Shown: positions 1 through 28,134 of the stretch, piece by piece
Numbering within the stretch: the first letter of the stretch is position 1
Layout of the letters: each line of letters begins with the position of its first letter
DNA from: Deltaproteobacteria bacterium
GTDB lineage: Bacteria > Desulfobacterota > Syntrophobacteria > Syntrophobacterales > Syntrophobacteraceae
NCBI GenBank assembly: GCA_021813685.1
Contig: JAKAJS010000097.1
Coordinates: 24,363 to 88,362 of the forward strand
Direction of reading: 5' to 3'
DNA length: 64,000 bases
Notes under the pieces: model-generated
Databases searched by the model: none
What the model saw: only the letters and a program-made list of their open reading frames with translations
Told to the model about the DNA's origin: nothing
Made by a program: the position numbers and the translations under genes

Positions 1-529
1 GTATGTCCTTTAGTCTTTCGAGTTCTTCATAGCGCAGCGCATTGGACATCGCGATCGAAAACGGCCCCCGCAGGAGCAGAGCCCGGTCGGCATGCTCCCT
101 GGTAAAAACCGCGCTACCCTCTGCCAGAACGGTGAAAGCGCCTATGTTTTTGCCCTCCATGCCCAGATCCATGATCAGAGCGGAATGGTGCGCAAGGTCG
201 ATATACGGGCGAAGGTCCTTCACCACGGAGTACTCTTCCGTCCGGTCAATGAGCAGGATCTTGCCGGTTGCTACCACCGACACGAGATCCTTGACCGATT
301 CCCTGGACAGCGGCACAGGCGGCAACGATTTTTTGCCGCCAAGATGATCGATTACGAGCATCGTCGTAAGGTTTCTGGAACTCGGCTCAAACAAGGCCAG
401 AGCCACATGGGAGGCGGGGATGAATGACCGGAAATATTGCAGGCAGTTAAACAATGCTTTCTCGACATCGAGGCTGCTGCAAATTTGCAAGGTGGCGTCC
501 CGGAAGAACTCGAATTCGCTTAATTCCAT
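1..529 (-). CDS. GAF-domain protein, probable N-terminus of a sigma-54-dependent transcriptional activator (truncated by window edge)
   Basis: Minus-strand reading from ATG at 529: MELSEFEFFRDATLQICSSLDVEKALFNCLQYFRSFIPASHVALALFEPSSRNLTTMLVIDHLGG...PFSIAMSNALRYEELERLKD; GAF followed by the NALRY..LKD linker typical of FhlA-like activators. AAA+ domain not visible. Confidence 0.7.
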   Translation of the reverse strand, partial: MELSEFEFFRDATLQICSSLDVEKALFNCLQYFRSFIPASHVALALFEPSSRNLTTMLVIDHLGGKKSLPPVPLSRESVKDLVSVVATGKILLIDRTEEYSVVKDLRPYIDLAHHSALIMDLGMEGKNIGAFTVLAEGSAVFTREHADRALLLRGPFSIAMSNALRYEELERLKDI

Positions 530-596
530 AGCTCACCCTCAGTCGGAAATTTTTGGGTAAATATAGCTCGATTTTGGACCGAATTCATTGGAAAAC

Positions 597-645
597 GATA
601 TTTCACAAAAAAAAAGACCATATTTCCACAATTCCGGCTCGCCTC
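597..645 (+). promoter_or_regulatory. Conserved upstream element (putative activator binding site) copy 1
   Basis: GATATTTCAC..22-bp spacing..ATATTTCC followed by AATTCCGGCTCGCC; same element at 1957, 4210, 5035, 5709. Confidence 0.6.
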
Positions 646-713
646 GGCTCCATCGCGTCGTTGCTCATCAGAAAACCAGTTAAAAATCAATTACTTGTAA
701 ATACATTCCTTCA

Positions 714-730
714 TTGGCATCAGTGTTGCT
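714..730 (+). promoter_or_regulatory. sigma-54 (-24/-12) promoter P1
   Basis: TTGGCATcagtgTTGCT; GG-N10-GC. Confidence 0.8.
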
Positions 731-799
731 CCTTATGCCGGGTAACTGTGGAAATGAATGGTACCGAAAAATAAATTCAATTATCTCAAGGAGAACAAA

Positions 800-1096
800 A
801 TGAAAAAAGCTCTGACAACCCTGCTTCTGGTTTTCGCCATGGTCGGCTTCATCGGTTTTACCGGCTCGCCGGCCGGCGCAGCAACTGCCTCTGAGTACTG
901 CAATCCCGCTTATACAAATTGGATCGGGGCCCCGGGAAGCCAGGGCGCTGTGTGCCCGACGGCTGTCGCCTCCGCCCCGGACCCTGCGCCGGTGTACTGC
1001 AATTCCGCTTACACGGCCTGGATCGGAGCGCCGGGAAGCGAAGGGGCAACGTGCCGCGGGCTTGTCGCAAGCCACGGGAATAATGCCGGGAATTAA
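800..1096 (+). CDS. Small secreted Cys-containing repeat peptide, family A copy 1
   Basis: Signal peptide MKKALTTLLLVFAMVGFIGFTGSPAGA; two repeats YCNxAYTxWIGAPGSxGAxC; RBS AAGGAG; paralog at 4426. Confidence 0.85.
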   Translation: MKKALTTLLLVFAMVGFIGFTGSPAGAATASEYCNPAYTNWIGAPGSQGAVCPTAVASAPDPAPVYCNSAYTAWIGAPGSEGATCRGLVASHGNNAGN

Positions 1097-1200
1097 CCCT
1101 TCAAACACGTCCGGTACCAACGGAGCAGGGGGGCGGGGTTTCCGTCCTCCCCTCCATAAAGAACAGGTTTTCTGTATAAAGCTGCATAAAGGAGCAAAAA

Positions 1201-1617
1201 ATGGTCTGGCTCGAAACGATAAGTATTCGCTCGGCCGGGATTACCGAAGCCCGAGAAGTCCTGGAACTCTGCAGTCAGATCGCCGAATCTACTGCGCCCG
1301 ACACTGCGTTGGGAGTAAAGGTATTTTGCAATGTCGCTTATGCGACCGACATCAGCATCCATCTTCAATGGAATTCGGATCCCGGACCTTCGAGCGTTTT
1401 AGGAAATGAGTTGACTGCGACGCTTCGTGACTTTGGCTTGATAAGTCACACGGTGTGGATCGAGCAAGAACATCCAGCCGGTCTCCATGTTTTGGAAACG
1501 GGTCCGGGGCAAAATCCAGCAGGAATACGGAAAAGGAATGGCCGCCAAGAAGTTGGAATTCTGGGAGAAAACCGAAAATTTGCGCGCAGGAGACAAGAAT
1601 TCGTGCGAGAAACCTGA
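1201..1617 (+). CDS. Hypothetical protein (possible frameshift near the 3' end)
   Basis: MVWLETISIRSAGITEAREVLELCSQIAEST...; RBS AAGGAG upstream; an overlapping ORF at 1487-1699 looks like a continuation in another frame. Confidence 0.5.
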   Translation: MVWLETISIRSAGITEAREVLELCSQIAESTAPDTALGVKVFCNVAYATDISIHLQWNSDPGPSSVLGNELTATLRDFGLISHTVWIEQEHPAGLHVLETGPGQNPAGIRKRNGRQEVGILGENRKFARRRQEFVRET

Positions 1618-1956
1618 TCCGGGTGGCCGGACCACCCGGTCAGTATTCAAAAACAAGCGGAGCAAACAGAATACCTCGTCTAGATCATGCTCTGCCTGAA
1701 TTTCAGGTCAATCCCCAACATTAGTTCCGCAACACCTCCTTCCGAATATTCGCGCCCCTCTTCGTGATCTTGTTCGGCCTCATGGTATCGGCATTATAGA
1801 GCATAACACCTTGCTTCCTCGCCCGATCAAGACCCCGATCCGGCTCATTTCGAAAACCTCGTCCCTTATCAGAAGCTTGCCCGTGCGGTCGGCAGGCTCC
1901 TGCAGACGTTTTGACAAACACGGAAAACGAGGCTGTTTTTCCATGCGTCGATTAAG

Positions 1957-2005
1957 GATATTCCACGAATAAATGTATTGTATTTCCTAAATTCTTGCTC
2001 GCAGC
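1957..2005 (+). promoter_or_regulatory. Conserved upstream element copy 2
   Basis: GATATTCCACGAATAAATGTATTGTATTTCCTAAATTCTTGCTCGC; 117 bp upstream of the next -24 element. Confidence 0.6.
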
Positions 2006-2073
2006 AGGCGCTATAAATCGGAGTGCATCTTTATTATTTATTTAAATCGCTTACTTATGGAAAAACGTCCTGT

Positions 2074-2090
2074 TTGGCATCGGTGTTGCT
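2074..2090 (+). promoter_or_regulatory. sigma-54 (-24/-12) promoter P2
   Basis: TTGGCATcggtgTTGCT; GG-N10-GC. Confidence 0.8.
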
Positions 2091-2160
2091 GTTAAAACGA
2101 TTAACTGCGGAATATGGATGCAGAAACACGAAACCAAATTGCTGAAAAAGGAGAAAAGAA

Positions 2161-2418
2161 ATGAAAAAGATTTTGAATGGCGCCTTGATTGGGTTGTCGA
2201 TTATGGGATTGGTCCTGGTTTCCGGTGTAGCTACCCCGGCAATTGCCTCGAACGTTGCTCCGATGTGTTTTGCCGGTTCCTGTCCCGATATGAGCAAACC
2301 GGACGCCTTGCGCCCGAGCGGCCCGTATGCTTGCGGTATCGCTTCGCCGGCGGACCCCGGCTATCTCCTTGCGCGTGCACTTCCCTGCCGTGTCGACAGA
2401 AACCTGGCGGCCAAATAA
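2161..2418 (+). CDS. Small secreted peptide, family B copy 1
   Basis: MKKILNGALIGLSIMGLVLVSGVATPAIAS signal peptide; PMCFAGSCPDM motif shared with the 5225 ORF. Confidence 0.8.
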   Translation: MKKILNGALIGLSIMGLVLVSGVATPAIASNVAPMCFAGSCPDMSKPDALRPSGPYACGIASPADPGYLLARALPCRVDRNLAAK

Positions 2419-2558
2419 CACCCGAAGCGCTGCCGCGGTGCAAAAGGGATGAGAGAGATCTTCCACCGGCTCTCTTATCCCTTTTCCTATTCAGATTCCT
2501 GCGTGCCGACTCGGCAATGCGTGATGCCTTCCATACTTGTCTACAGGAGTATTGACCG

Positions 2559-3374
2559 ATGCCGGTTTTGTTCATCTCCAGGGGAAGCATGTCCGGTGCG
2601 TGCCAAGTGGTAGAGTGTCTTGGGAAAAACACCGGGATCAGGTGTATCTCGCGGGAGAGCCTGGTAAAAAGAGCCATGCGCCATAGCGAGACGGCTCGCA
2701 GACTGTTGCAGGAATTAAACGGCGCCATTTCCCATTATGAAAGGTTCAGCGCATTGCGGTGGCGCTATCTGGTGCTGCTGCGACACGCGCTGTTGGAGGA
2801 AATAGTTGAAGATAACGTAGTCTATCACGGCTATTCCGCCCATTTTCTCCTGCCCGTTCTCCAGCATTTTATCAGAGTGCGAATAGATGCCCCGATCGAG
2901 TTTCGTATCAGGATGACGATGGAGCGTCTCAAATGTGATGAGGAAAAAGCCGGCTCCATAATCAAGACCGACGACGAGCAACGGGTGAAGTGGGCTCGAT
3001 TTATGTACTGCCGGGATATTCGCGATCCCCGCTTCTATGACTTGCATCTGAATCTCGGCCACATGAGCCTTAAGGCGGTGTGCGGTCTTTTAACACAATC
3101 CTTTTCCGAACAGGAATTCCAGGCGAATCCGCAAACCAGGGAAGAGGTGAAAAAATTACTCCTCGAGGCCACCGTCCAGGCAGCGCTGGTGAGCGATGCG
3201 CGACTCAGTGAATGCGAGATCAGTGCAAAGCTCGAAGACGGGTGCATGAATCTCTACGGTCCCTATCTCGGGGCCGTGAGGGCCACTGCGATCGATGTCG
3301 CAAAAAAAGCTGCCTGCACCGCCGACGTCTTCTACAAGCCCGGCTATTCACCTTGGTTGGACACTTTTTCTTAG
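2559..3374 (+). CDS. Cytidylate kinase-like family protein
   Basis: MPVLFISRGSMSGACQVVECLGKNTG...; overall pattern of the AAK6/cytidylate kinase-like family with a degenerate P-loop. Confidence 0.6.
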   Translation: MPVLFISRGSMSGACQVVECLGKNTGIRCISRESLVKRAMRHSETARRLLQELNGAISHYERFSALRWRYLVLLRHALLEEIVEDNVVYHGYSAHFLLPVLQHFIRVRIDAPIEFRIRMTMERLKCDEEKAGSIIKTDDEQRVKWARFMYCRDIRDPRFYDLHLNLGHMSLKAVCGLLTQSFSEQEFQANPQTREEVKKLLLEATVQAALVSDARLSECEISAKLEDGCMNLYGPYLGAVRATAIDVAKKAACTADVFYKPGYSPWLDTFS

Positions 3375-3450
3375 ATAACCTGTCATTCGCTTCTGACACG
3401 AGGCAATGAGCTCCCATCAGCTTTTCCATGCATCCCGGGGAGGTCCCGAA

Positions 3451-4116
3451 ATGTGCGAACACGACTTTCACAATGAGATTTCCCAGGCCCTTGACCAGAT
3501 TCAAAGACTGCTGGATCGCTCCGTGGGCTGCCAGGAGAAGATCCAGGAAATCCAGACCAACATGCAGGAACTGGAAAAGGAGGGCACTTCAAATCTTGTC
3601 CAATCGGTCACTGCATCCAACACCCTGGCCGACCAGAGGACCGGGATGGCGCAGGAAAGAACCGCTCTCGTTCGGGAACAGACCCGCTTATCGACCAGAT
3701 CGACCGAACTGGCGACGATCCGTACCGATCTTGCCCAAGACCGCACTTCGCTCGCCGGCCAGCGGACCGACCTTGCTGCCGTGCGCTCTCAACTCTCCAG
3801 GGCCAGAACCAATCTGGCTTTCCAGCGCACCGAGATGGCGGCCGACCGCACCCGATTTTCCAGGGTCCGAACGGAATTGTCCCGTGGACGAACATTCCTG
3901 GCGCTCGTCAGGACAGGCCTGGCGTTTCTGACCTTGAGCGTCGGTTTCTATCGGTTTTTCGGCCCTTCCTGGTGGTCCATCTTCGACGGCCTGATTGCTC
4001 TTTTCAGCCTGACTCTCACAATTTCGGGCCTTCTGGGATATCGGCGCACATGCCAAACCATCAACAATGTGGAACAGGCCGTCATCCCGTCACCGGATTG
4101 GGAAACGGCATTGTAA
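3451..4116 (+). CDS. DUF202-like membrane protein with a 14-unit heptad RT repeat
   Basis: Repeats such as TIRTDLA QDRTSLA GQRTDLA lead into RGRTFLALVRTGLAF (DUF202 signature) and C-terminal TM segments. Confidence 0.7.
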   Translation: MCEHDFHNEISQALDQIQRLLDRSVGCQEKIQEIQTNMQELEKEGTSNLVQSVTASNTLADQRTGMAQERTALVREQTRLSTRSTELATIRTDLAQDRTSLAGQRTDLAAVRSQLSRARTNLAFQRTEMAADRTRFSRVRTELSRGRTFLALVRTGLAFLTLSVGFYRFFGPSWWSIFDGLIALFSLTLTISGLLGYRRTCQTINNVEQAVIPSPDWETAL

Positions 4117-4209
4117 AGTGAACAGTAAGCCGGCTGCAGACCAAAATCTTTGATCGCAAAATCTACGCGCCAAGGGGAGACCTGGGTTCTCACGAATTTC
4201 GTGAAAAAC

Positions 4210-4255
4210 GATATATCACGAAAAGATATACGATATTTCCCAATTTCTGGCTCGA
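4210..4255 (+). promoter_or_regulatory. Conserved upstream element copy 3
   Basis: GATATATCACGAAAAGATATACGATATTTCCCAATTTCTGGCTCG. Confidence 0.6.
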
Positions 4256-4328
4256 ATCCCTTCGATTGATTGCCTGCAAATCAGGATTAATACTGAAAAA
4301 TCCGTATCTTAGATAATCAATTCCTCGG

Positions 4329-4345
4329 TTGGCACCGGTATTGCT
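4329..4345 (+). promoter_or_regulatory. sigma-54 (-24/-12) promoter P3
   Basis: TTGGCACcggtaTTGCT; near-consensus. Confidence 0.85.
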
Positions 4346-4425
4346 CTATAAGCCGTGGAATTGGGGAAATGAGCGCGGAAACTCGAATTCAATCACCTAA
4401 ATTTCAATCATCTCAAGGAGATCAA

Positions 4426-4722
4426 ATGAAAAGGGCATTAGCGACTCTGCTGTTGGTTTTCGCCATGGTTGGCTTTATCGGGCTTATCGGCTCGCCGGCC
4501 GGCGCAGCAACTACCTCTGTCTACTGCAATCCTGCTTATACGAACTGGATCGGAGCGCCGGGAAGCCAGGGTGCTATCTGCCCGACGACTGTCGCCTCTG
4601 CTCCGGATCCGATGCCGGTTTACTGCAGTTCCGCGTACACGGCCTGGATCGGGGCGCCGGGAAGCGAAGGGGCAACATGCCAGGGACTTGTCGCCAGCCA
4701 CGGGAACAAGGCCGGAAATTAA
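4426..4722 (+). CDS. Small secreted Cys-containing repeat peptide, family A copy 2
   Basis: MKRALATLLLVFAMVGFIGLIGSPAGAATTSVYCNPAYTNWIGAPGSQGAICPT...; paralog of the 800-1096 product. Confidence 0.85.
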   Translation: MKRALATLLLVFAMVGFIGLIGSPAGAATTSVYCNPAYTNWIGAPGSQGAICPTTVASAPDPMPVYCSSAYTAWIGAPGSEGATCQGLVASHGNKAGN

Positions 4723-4754
4723 CCATTTAAGCTCATCCGAGTCCTACCGAAGCA

Positions 4755-4787
4755 GGGGGGGGCTTCCGCCCTCCCCTCCCCAAAAAA
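4755..4787 (+). terminator. G/C-rich hairpin after family A copy 2
   Basis: GGGGGGGGCttccGCCCTCCCCTCCCC then AAAAAA; an analogous hairpin lies after copy 1 near 1128-1156. Confidence 0.45.
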
Positions 4788-5034
4788 GCAGTTGAAAGAG
4801 AGTCGATCCGGCCTCCTTTCGAGGGGTCGAGACACATCTAGCCTACAACCGCTGCCGAAGGAATAGCAGAAGCACATTCTCCATCTGCCCAACGGATTCC
4901 CACACATATCGTTTCGATCTCATCGCTTTCCCTGCTTTTCCAAGTTTCTGAAGGCTCTAAGCAAATAACCATCTTCAGTCGAAAAATCCCGACGTTAGAT
5001 ACGATCCCGTTTTTGCGTAACTTCACTAAAACAC

Positions 5035-5078
5035 GATATTTCGCGAAAAATTAGACCAAGTTTCCCCAATTTCGGCTC
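5035..5078 (+). promoter_or_regulatory. Conserved upstream element copy 4
   Basis: GATATTTCGCGAAAAATTAGACCAAGTTTCCCCAATTTCGGCTC. Confidence 0.6.
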
Positions 5079-5150
5079 TCAGCCATTCAGATTAACGCGA
5101 AATATATTTTTTTATCAGCAAAATCAAACCCTTATAAAAGATTCCCCCGT

Positions 5151-5167
5151 TGGCATCCCTGTTGCTG
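5151..5167 (+). promoter_or_regulatory. sigma-54 (-24/-12) promoter P4
   Basis: TTGGCATccctgTTGCT; GG-N10-GC. Confidence 0.8.
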
Positions 5168-5224
5168 AATATGACTGATAACTGCGGAAACGCACAAACA
5201 CGGACTTGCAAAGGAGAAAAAAGA

Positions 5225-5464
5225 ATGAAAAAAATAATGAGTGGAGCTTTGATTGCGTTGTTTCTCATGGGAGCCGCTCCGGTTTCCGGCATCCATACCC
5301 CGGCGCTCGCCTCACAGATACATCCGATGTGCTGGGCCGGTTATTGTCCCGATATGACCAAAAAGGATCCGCCCGCCAAATCGTCCGATCCCCGCGCGTA
5401 TCACCGGGCCGATCCTCCGAGGGAACGGGTTGCCCCAACCCCCATGGGCAATGTCGGCTTCTGA
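5225..5464 (+). CDS. Small secreted peptide, family B copy 2
   Basis: MKKIMSGALIALFLMGAAPVSGIHTPALASQIHPMCWAGYCPDMTKK; paralog of the 2161 product. Confidence 0.8.
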   Translation: MKKIMSGALIALFLMGAAPVSGIHTPALASQIHPMCWAGYCPDMTKKDPPAKSSDPRAYHRADPPRERVAPTPMGNVGF

Positions 5465-5644
5465 TTCTCAGTAAACCAAAACGGTGCGGGATAGTTCTCG
5501 GCCCAACGGCGAAGTCGCCCCCGGATTTCCGGGGGCGCTCCACTCGACGCAAAAAACCGACCCACCTTCCCTCAGTAAATTGACCCACCCGGCTTGCAAC
5601 TCTGGAATTCTCTTTTTTTGATCCCGCCAAAACGCGCCTTACTG

Positions 5645-5697
5645 GTGCTTTTGATTGCGTTGTTTCACATGGGTTTCCGCCCTGGTTTCCGGCATTT
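5645..5697 (+). pseudogene. Truncated relic of a family B gene (signal-peptide region only)
   Basis: gtgcttttgattgcgttgtttcacatgggtttccgccctggtttccggcat closely matches 5245-5292. Confidence 0.65.
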
Positions 5698-5708
5698 TAA
5701 AAAAGAGT

Positions 5709-5755
5709 GATATTTCAGAAAAAATGTATCATATTTCCTAAATCATTACGCGCAG
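5709..5755 (+). promoter_or_regulatory. Conserved upstream element copy 5
   Basis: GATATTTCAGAAAAAATGTATCATATTTCCTAAATCATTACGCGC. Confidence 0.55.
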
Positions 5756-5825
5756 GGATTCCAAAGCGCCGCGCCCCAAATTACTTTCCCGTTGCATATC
5801 AATGCCTTATGACAAATGCCCGTGC

Positions 5826-5842
5826 ATGGCATGACAATTGCC
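5826..5842 (+). promoter_or_regulatory. sigma-54 (-24/-12) promoter P5
   Basis: ATGGCATgacaaTTGCC; GG-N10-GC, 117 bp after element copy 5. Confidence 0.65.
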
Positions 5843-5893
5843 TTGAAATTAGGAGAACAGGAAGAGCAATCCTTTTGAAGAAAGGAAATTGAA

Positions 5894-6097
5894 ATGAGCA
5901 CTATGAAAAAAATCAAAAGGGTCAAGATGCTGCTGGCTAAAACTGAACAGGCCTTACACGGCCATTTTCAGCACAAATTGAATGCAATGCACGTCTATTG
6001 CCATTTGAGCGGGCTAATCGGAAGCCGGTATGCCATGGCTGTTGCCCGAAAGTGGGAAAGAAACCTAATCTATTCACATATTGTTTACAGAAAATGA
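5894..6097 (+). CDS. Small basic hypothetical protein
   Basis: MSTMKKIKRVKMLLAKTEQALHGHFQHKLNAMHVYCHLSGLIG...; GAAGAAAGGAAA upstream; downstream of P5. Confidence 0.5.
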   Translation: MSTMKKIKRVKMLLAKTEQALHGHFQHKLNAMHVYCHLSGLIGSRYAMAVARKWERNLIYSHIVYRK

Positions 6098-27375: not shown

Positions 27376-27392
27376 ATGGCATAATTTTTGCT
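27376..27392 (+). promoter_or_regulatory. sigma-54-like promoter upstream of PEP-CTERM gene
   Basis: ATGGCATaatttTTGCT; GG-N10-GC. Confidence 0.65.
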
Positions 27393-27459: not shown

Positions 27460-28134
27460 GTGAAAAGAGCGATATTCATTGTCGGATTGGTTGTAGCGTT
27501 GGCTGCGTGGACGGCGCCAAATGCACATGCGGGGATGATAAGCGGCAGCGTCTGGACGACAAATAGCTACAATTTCACAACGCATGATCTCACCAACGGT
27601 GCGATAAGCGGTCTAGGTCAGGCCGACCTCACCTTTAGCGTGGACGCGATCAACTTCCAGGACCCTATCCCCCTAATAAATGGTACTCAGACCACTTATG
27701 CGCAGTTCCTGAGCGGTTCGCTGAACTCCAATCCAAATAATTTTACTGCAGGTACGACAAAGGCTGGTAGTTCTATTCATTTCAACGACTTAGTACAGAC
27801 CGCGCCTAACGGCGTGGCCTCGATCTTCCAATTAAGCGGAACGGCTTACTTTGACAGCTCTGTTACCGTATGGAAAGATGATGGTTTTGATCTGTATATA
27901 GATGGTCAACTCTTTACGGATGCAAGCGCCCCGACCGCCCCTACCCCAATCACCATCGATGGCATTAGCAGTGGCCTTCACAGCTTTACAATTAATTACG
28001 CTGCCTGGAACTTCATTCCAGAGCAACTCACCATCACTGGCATGACCCCCACTCCCGAGCCTGCTTCCCTGGTTCTCGTACTTGCCACCCTGCTTGGCTT
28101 CGGACTCGTTGGCCTCCGCAAGCAACGAGCCTAG
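27460..28134 (+). CDS. PEP-CTERM sorting domain-containing secreted protein
   Basis: GTG start with ATGGAGG RBS; signal peptide; C-terminal TPEPASLVLVLATLLGFGLVGLRKQRA. Confidence 0.85.
   Translation: MKRAIFIVGLVVALAAWTAPNAHAGMISGSVWTTNSYNFTTHDLTNGAISGLGQADLTFSVDAINFQDPIPLINGTQTTYAQFLSGSLNSNPNNFTAGTTKAGSSIHFNDLVQTAPNGVASIFQLSGTAYFDSSVTVWKDDGFDLYIDGQLFTDASAPTAPTPITIDGISSGLHSFTINYAAWNFIPEQLTITGMTPTPEPASLVLVLATLLGFGLVGLRKQRA

Follow-up and report, generated by a model that had tools for sequence, protein, structure and literature searches.

The locus analysed here raises the question of whether five small open reading frames, each placed behind a -24/-12 promoter and a near-identical upstream block, answer to a single sigma-54 activator, and how far such a regulon would extend. 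The window, meaning the whole stretch of DNA analysed (64 kb, C125:24363-88362), belongs to a 5.06 Mb MAG with an estimated contamination of 6%, from a member of the Syntrophobacteraceae living in soil or wetland. The genome contains rpoN (PF04552 match, E 3.6e-64). It is highly probable that the locus belongs to a dedicated sigma-54 regulon comprising a GAF-AAA+-Fis enhancer-binding protein (EBP), a tandem enhancer, an IHF site, a -24/-12 promoter and 11 dispersed units.

Search profiles and genomes

Elements were searched with a sequence-only profile (R1) trained on eight sites, namely the five of the window and three (C87, C204 and C125:13k) that a pattern search had given. The PWM used for scoring the window was built from only nine sites of two other species, with none from the window's own genome. 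Distances are given in a common register, counted from the G of GATATT to base 1 of the 17-mer TTGGCAT... The relatives scanned were 27 genomes of Syntrophobacteraceae; G000 is the window's own genome, G023 is the Syntrophobacteraceae MAG BA69 and G025 is Syntrophobacter sp. SbD1. Unit-level counts cover 21 units or sites from three species of one genus.

Enhancers, promoters and IHF-like sites of the window

The five blocks and five GG-N10-GC promoters claimed in a preliminary description are all present, on the plus strand. Element 1 occupies 597-634, with boxes at 597-612 and 620-634, and is followed by promoter TGGCATCAGTGTTGCT at 715-730; element 2 (1957-1994) is followed by TGGCATCGGTGTTGCT at 2075-2090, element 3 (4210-4247) by TGGCACCGGTATTGCT at 4330-4345, element 4 (5035-5072) by TGGCATCCCTGTTGCT at 5151-5166 and element 5 (5709-5745) by the weaker TGGCATGACAATTGCC at 5827-5842. 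All five elements match both the profile and the PWM. In agreement with the earlier description, the boxes are spaced at 22 bp, or at 21 bp in copy 5. Element-to-promoter distances of 117, 117, 119 and 117 bp in copies 1, 2, 3 and 5 also agree with the earlier values; copy 4 measures 115 bp in the common register, the 116 bp given before having been counted from the next base. Column conservation over the 21 sites extends the element about 17 bp further upstream, to a third and weaker box located at 578-594 (plus strand) in copy 1, upstream of box 1 at a spacing of about 17 bp. The three-box layout is also found in distant relatives.

The PWM scores of the five blocks (59.5, 58.7, 54.6, 44.0 and 27.4) are the top five in the 64 kb. 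The next-best window site scores 3.6 and the maximum over 100 random 64-kb sequences is 11.8; a chance origin of the blocks was rejected on these scores. Five window sites lie within one mismatch of TGGCAC-N5-TTGCW, with 0.84 expected by chance, four of them being promoters of the regulon. When compared with the consensus TGGCAY-N5-TTGCW, four of the five window promoters have at most one mismatch and the fifth is weaker.

The preliminary description mentioned neither an IHF site nor the activator gene and the ancestral activator/WLE unit presented below. The IHF consensus WATCARNNNNTTR is found between element and promoter, on the plus strand, as a perfect match in unit 1 (AATCAATTACTTG, 685-697), unit 4 (AATCAAACCCTTA, 5122-5134) and unit 5 (TATCAATGCCTTA, 5797-5809), with one mismatch in unit 3 (AATCCGTATCTTA, 4299-4311) and in a degenerate form with two mismatches in unit 2 (AATCGCTTACTTA, 2045-2057). 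Over the 21 units it is perfect at this fixed position in 9 and within one mismatch in 15, the shuffled-spacer expectations being 0.005 and 0.1; paralogy inflates these values, yet identity among the spacers of the five window copies is no higher than 25-43%. The sites start 30-32 bp upstream of the -24 GG (41 bp in SbD1, where the spacer is longer) and are poor in about 6 of the 21 units. The box-to-box distance is 22 bp throughout, with the exception of three units with 21 bp. The distance from element to promoter is 115-119 bp in 18 units; in the other three it is 127-128 bp, longer by roughly one helical turn. Many copies are paralogous, and part of the similarity of the elements is therefore shared ancestry.

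Distribution of the element

Profile R1 identified exactly 11 elements at E < 1e-7 in the 5.06 Mb genome, the next match having an E of 0.3. A -24/-12 promoter follows each of the 11 and stray copies number zero, which rules out a generic repeat found away from promoters. The held-out matches (C242, C204 minus strand and C104) each precede a family B gene already listed by a separate protein search, with the promoter at the same spacing. The locus had been presented as a local regulon of five promoters: these five do share the element, but the set comprises at least 11 promoters and is not purely local, because five of the 11 are on other contigs (C87, C204 twice, C242 and C104) and one is 12 kb away. 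The 11 units comprise four of family A (two with a WLE gene downstream), five of family B, one encoding a 67-aa protein and one encoding an outer-membrane protein of the Phenol_MetA_deg type; the A, B, 67-aa and porin-like types are mutually unrelated in sequence. Two promoters are weak, the one at window 5827 and the one at C125:13k. Exact TGGCAYN5TTGCW sites number 47 in the genome and the element is present at only 9 of them, so it marks a sub-regulon.

The scan of genome and relatives proposed in the preliminary description yields, besides the 11 promoter-linked genome sites, 10 more in two congeners: seven by profile and one by eye in BA69, and two in SbD1. These are the only other genomes with the element, which the profile search did not find in 24 of the 27 family genomes; family B was not found by protein search in 25 of the 27. 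The congener elements are always upstream of small ORFs, at the spacing seen in the window. In BA69 they stand before the genes of six family B-type peptides, before one for a family A peptide and before an ortholog of the 67-aa ORF; in SbD1 the peptides that follow are of a third type, which is related to family B (probability 96%). Genome-wide specificity, spacing and conservation support the earlier reading of the blocks as the probable enhancer of a dedicated sigma-54 regulon.

Target genes

Family A comprises two peptides of 98 aa in the window, at 800-1096 (signal peptide and two CX17C repeats) and 4426-4722, and family B comprises one of 85 aa at 2161-2418, with the motif MCFAGSCPDM, and one of 79 aa at 5225-5464. 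All four, on the plus strand, were assigned by inspection, protein search and Ka/Ks, and are predicted to be secreted. The fifth ORF (5894-6097, plus strand) encodes a 67-aa protein with no evident signal peptide, whose ortholog after the same element in BA69 is 72% identical. Ka/Ks is about 0.1-0.2 in family A, below 1 in every pair of family B (mostly 0.15-0.6), 0.16/0.49 for ORF 5894-6097 and well below 1 for the WLE gene; by this measure the small ORFs behind the five promoters have the appearance of real genes, as had been proposed. Inspection identified Sec-type signal sequences at the start of families A and B and, because of these only, the peptides would most likely act outside the cytoplasm.

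Pfam gave no matches for family A, family B or the 67-aa ORF, and NCBIfam none for family A, one family B peptide and the 67-aa ORF. Homology between the mature peptides of families A and B is unsupported (hhalign probability 5%). A family A match on C18 is another signal-peptide ORF and lacks the element. DUF3141 genes were found near regulon units at L061:3276-5612 (G000, C242) and L078:9885-12149 (G025, C71).

The WLE gene (1201-1617, plus strand) is the ancestral partner gene of the activator. Its predicted ABM-like ferredoxin fold is a lead only, being a resemblance of fold at about 10-13% identity, with no Pfam match to the ABM monooxygenase family. A homolog with 55% identity is present in L111 (DMNE01000367.1), a contig binned as Nitrospiraceae UBA9159, by transfer or misbinning.

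The proposed activator and its paralog

Divergent from element 1, at 1-529 on the minus strand, is the N-terminal part (176 aa) of a 515-aa GAF-AAA+-HTH_8 sigma-54 EBP, the remainder being upstream of the window and containing Sigma54_activat (PF00158, E 1.3e-69) and HTH_8 (PF02954, E 5.7e-05). The N-terminal part is a GAF-type sensor domain by domain matches and model: GAF_2 was recognised in 12 of 18 aligned relatives, and GAF domains such as 3k2n and those of nlh1/nlh2 and NifA were matched by the AlphaFold model (pLDDT 85.7), a Chlorobium sigma-54 regulator being among the proteins matched. The activator is a GAF one-component EBP, having a GAF sensor domain and no receiver domain. A paralog with 65.7% identity is located 12 kb away on C125, divergent from another element (C125:13k) that precedes the Phenol_MetA_deg-type outer-membrane protein gene. 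An IS66-family transposase (L033:15735-17030) is located between the two paralogs.

FhlA-type GAF EBPs, whose FhlA binding site is of the TTTC..GAAA type, are similar to this activator in site type and in the match of the paralog over AAA+ and HTH, where the FhlA model is its best NCBIfam match. However, the activator has a single GAF domain and the paralog scores 348 bits, far below the curated equivalog cut-off of 830, so its identification as FhlA, the formate hydrogenlyase activator, was rejected.

As a refinement of this reading it is possible, though doubtful, that the two paralogs split the regulon, one serving only the porin-like gene at C125:13k and the other the ten small-gene promoters. 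The paralog does adjoin the site where the promoter is weakest and the spacing 128 bp, but the boxes there are of the same type, the recognition helices of both proteins are similar, and a 127-bp spacing is also found at SbD1 sites adjoining an activator of the main type.

The elements might instead be bound mainly by some other EBP or by a repressor, the divergent activator gene being a chance neighbour. Such genomes have many EBPs. This alternative is nevertheless very improbable, as the closest orthologs of the activator are each divergent from an element in three species (in the congeners, the two best in BA69 and the best in SbD1), activator remnants adjoin unit copies, and in more distant species members of this activator subfamily are likewise placed opposite similar boxes and a GG-N10-GC promoter. 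Binding of the elements by the divergent activator is accordingly the preferred, though predicted, pairing.

Evolution of the units

The more distant activators (G016-G020, G010, G002 and the SbD1 paralog) face a GG-N10-GC promoter, behind which there is usually a WLE gene; in most cases the boxes lie at about 105, 87 and 65 bp and keep the same relative spacing. All genomes in which a WLE gene was identified also yielded an activator match; G020, G003 and G024 have an activator match and no WLE match. The ancestral unit is an activator divergent, across the enhancer and sigma-54 promoter, from the small ABM-fold-like WLE protein, and is kept in other species of the family. In G010 two adjacent WLE paralogs are divergent from the activator (L097:569-1223), so the WLE gene itself was duplicated. 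In a few species, duplication multiplied the peptide units. Activator gene fragments are present beside the family A unit on C204 (L036:4118-4264, minus strand) and beside an SbD1 unit (L078:6130-6403, minus strand), and are traces of unit copying; tblastn identified no such remnant beside the C87 copy.

These remnants, along with an identity of about 76-86% over 500-600 bp, block included, among the C87, C204, C242 and C104 copies, would fit a duplicated or mobile cassette in which the shared block was merely carried along without common regulation. Such a cassette has very little probability, since block and promoter are kept over unrelated ORF types while spacers fall to 25-43% identity, the conserved islands are the enhancer, the IHF site and the -24/-12 promoter, and the spacing is held or moved by about one turn. 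Duplication is the mode of spread of the regulon, and no alternative to regulation.

Proposed mechanism

The order enhancer, IHF site, -24/-12 promoter, with a one-component EBP gene beside one target, is textbook sigma-54 control. In the proposed mechanism the activator encoded at 1-529 (minus strand), probably together with its 66%-identical paralog, would bind the tandem enhancer formed by the two strong boxes 22 bp apart and the weaker third box. IHF would bend the DNA at the fixed promoter-near site, and the bend would let the activator contact sigma-54 RNA polymerase at the -24/-12 promoter. A ligand of the GAF domain would turn on the 11 dispersed transcription units together. It is a tentative suggestion, of rather low probability, that the cysteine-paired, secreted peptides of families A and B and of the SbD1 type form a hitherto unknown and recently expanded repertoire, which a single sigma-54 activator would deploy together on sensing a ligand. 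In uncultured Syntrophobacteraceae this repertoire would serve as a diversifying system outside the cell, for signalling, surface functions or antagonism.

Comparison with known systems

The statement that no described system has this layout was too strong, because LuxO/Qrr (PMC8043402) and PrsR/PEP-CTERM (PMC1569441) share it. In Vibrio, the sigma-54 EBP LuxO controls the dispersed paralogous small genes Qrr1-5, each with an EBP site and a -24/-12 promoter, one copy being divergent from the EBP gene and thought ancestral (PMC8043402). The likeness lies in one EBP with dispersed small units, one of them beside the EBP gene. However, the Qrr genes encode small RNAs, LuxO belongs to the phosphorylated response regulators and the targets share no homology; assignment to this system was rejected, the targets here being coding by Ka/Ks and the sensor being a GAF and not a receiver domain.

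PrsR/PEP-CTERM comprises exported proteins in single-gene units, each with an EBP motif and a -24/-12 motif, the former tied to one EBP by phylogenetic profile (PMC1569441). Exported products (predicted here), single-gene units and the paired motifs are shared, whereas a PEP-CTERM tail marks the targets of that system, whose EBP is a response regulator paired with the kinase PrsK. Inspection of families A and B and of the 67-aa ORF identified neither a PEP motif nor a C-terminal helix, and these tail-less products exclude a regulon of the PrsR/PEP-CTERM type.

The orp promoters of Desulfovibrio vulgaris, in divergent operons, contain an EBP site, an IHF site around -43 and the -24/-12 promoter, in this order, and IHF was shown to be needed (PMC3897727); the order of elements is as here, and target operons, EBP and motif differ. 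One-component EBP regulons of D. vulgaris have the EBP gene beside its own sigma-54 promoter and mostly comprise 1-4 operons, the largest 12, a range in which 11 units would be near the top; the sections consulted describe no paralogous secreted-peptide regulon (PMC4641369).

As it misses defining features of LuxO/Qrr and PrsR/PEP-CTERM, this is a new regulon of a known general kind, with new target families. The literature search found no description of it, and regulon, activator subfamily and peptide families appear new. The regulon is unusually complete for one obtained from sequence alone, comprising activator, tandem enhancer, IHF site, promoter and 11 targets, and the prediction held at untrained sites. 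Through it, small exported peptides unrecognised by the family libraries searched can be approached from the side of function, and it shows how an EBP with a single divergent target can become a dispersed peptide regulon. Public metatranscriptomes exist for BA69 and cover oxic and anoxic phases (PRJNA923161; PMC11451228), so the regulon is open to a culture-free test.

Elsewhere in the window, a good sigma-54-type promoter without the regulon element (TGGCATAATTTTTGCT, 27377-27392) is followed by an exported ORF at 27460-28134 with a PEP-CTERM-like tail at its end (TPEPASLVLVLATLLGFGLVGLRKQRA). This promoter and ORF are possibly part of a PrsR-type regulon.
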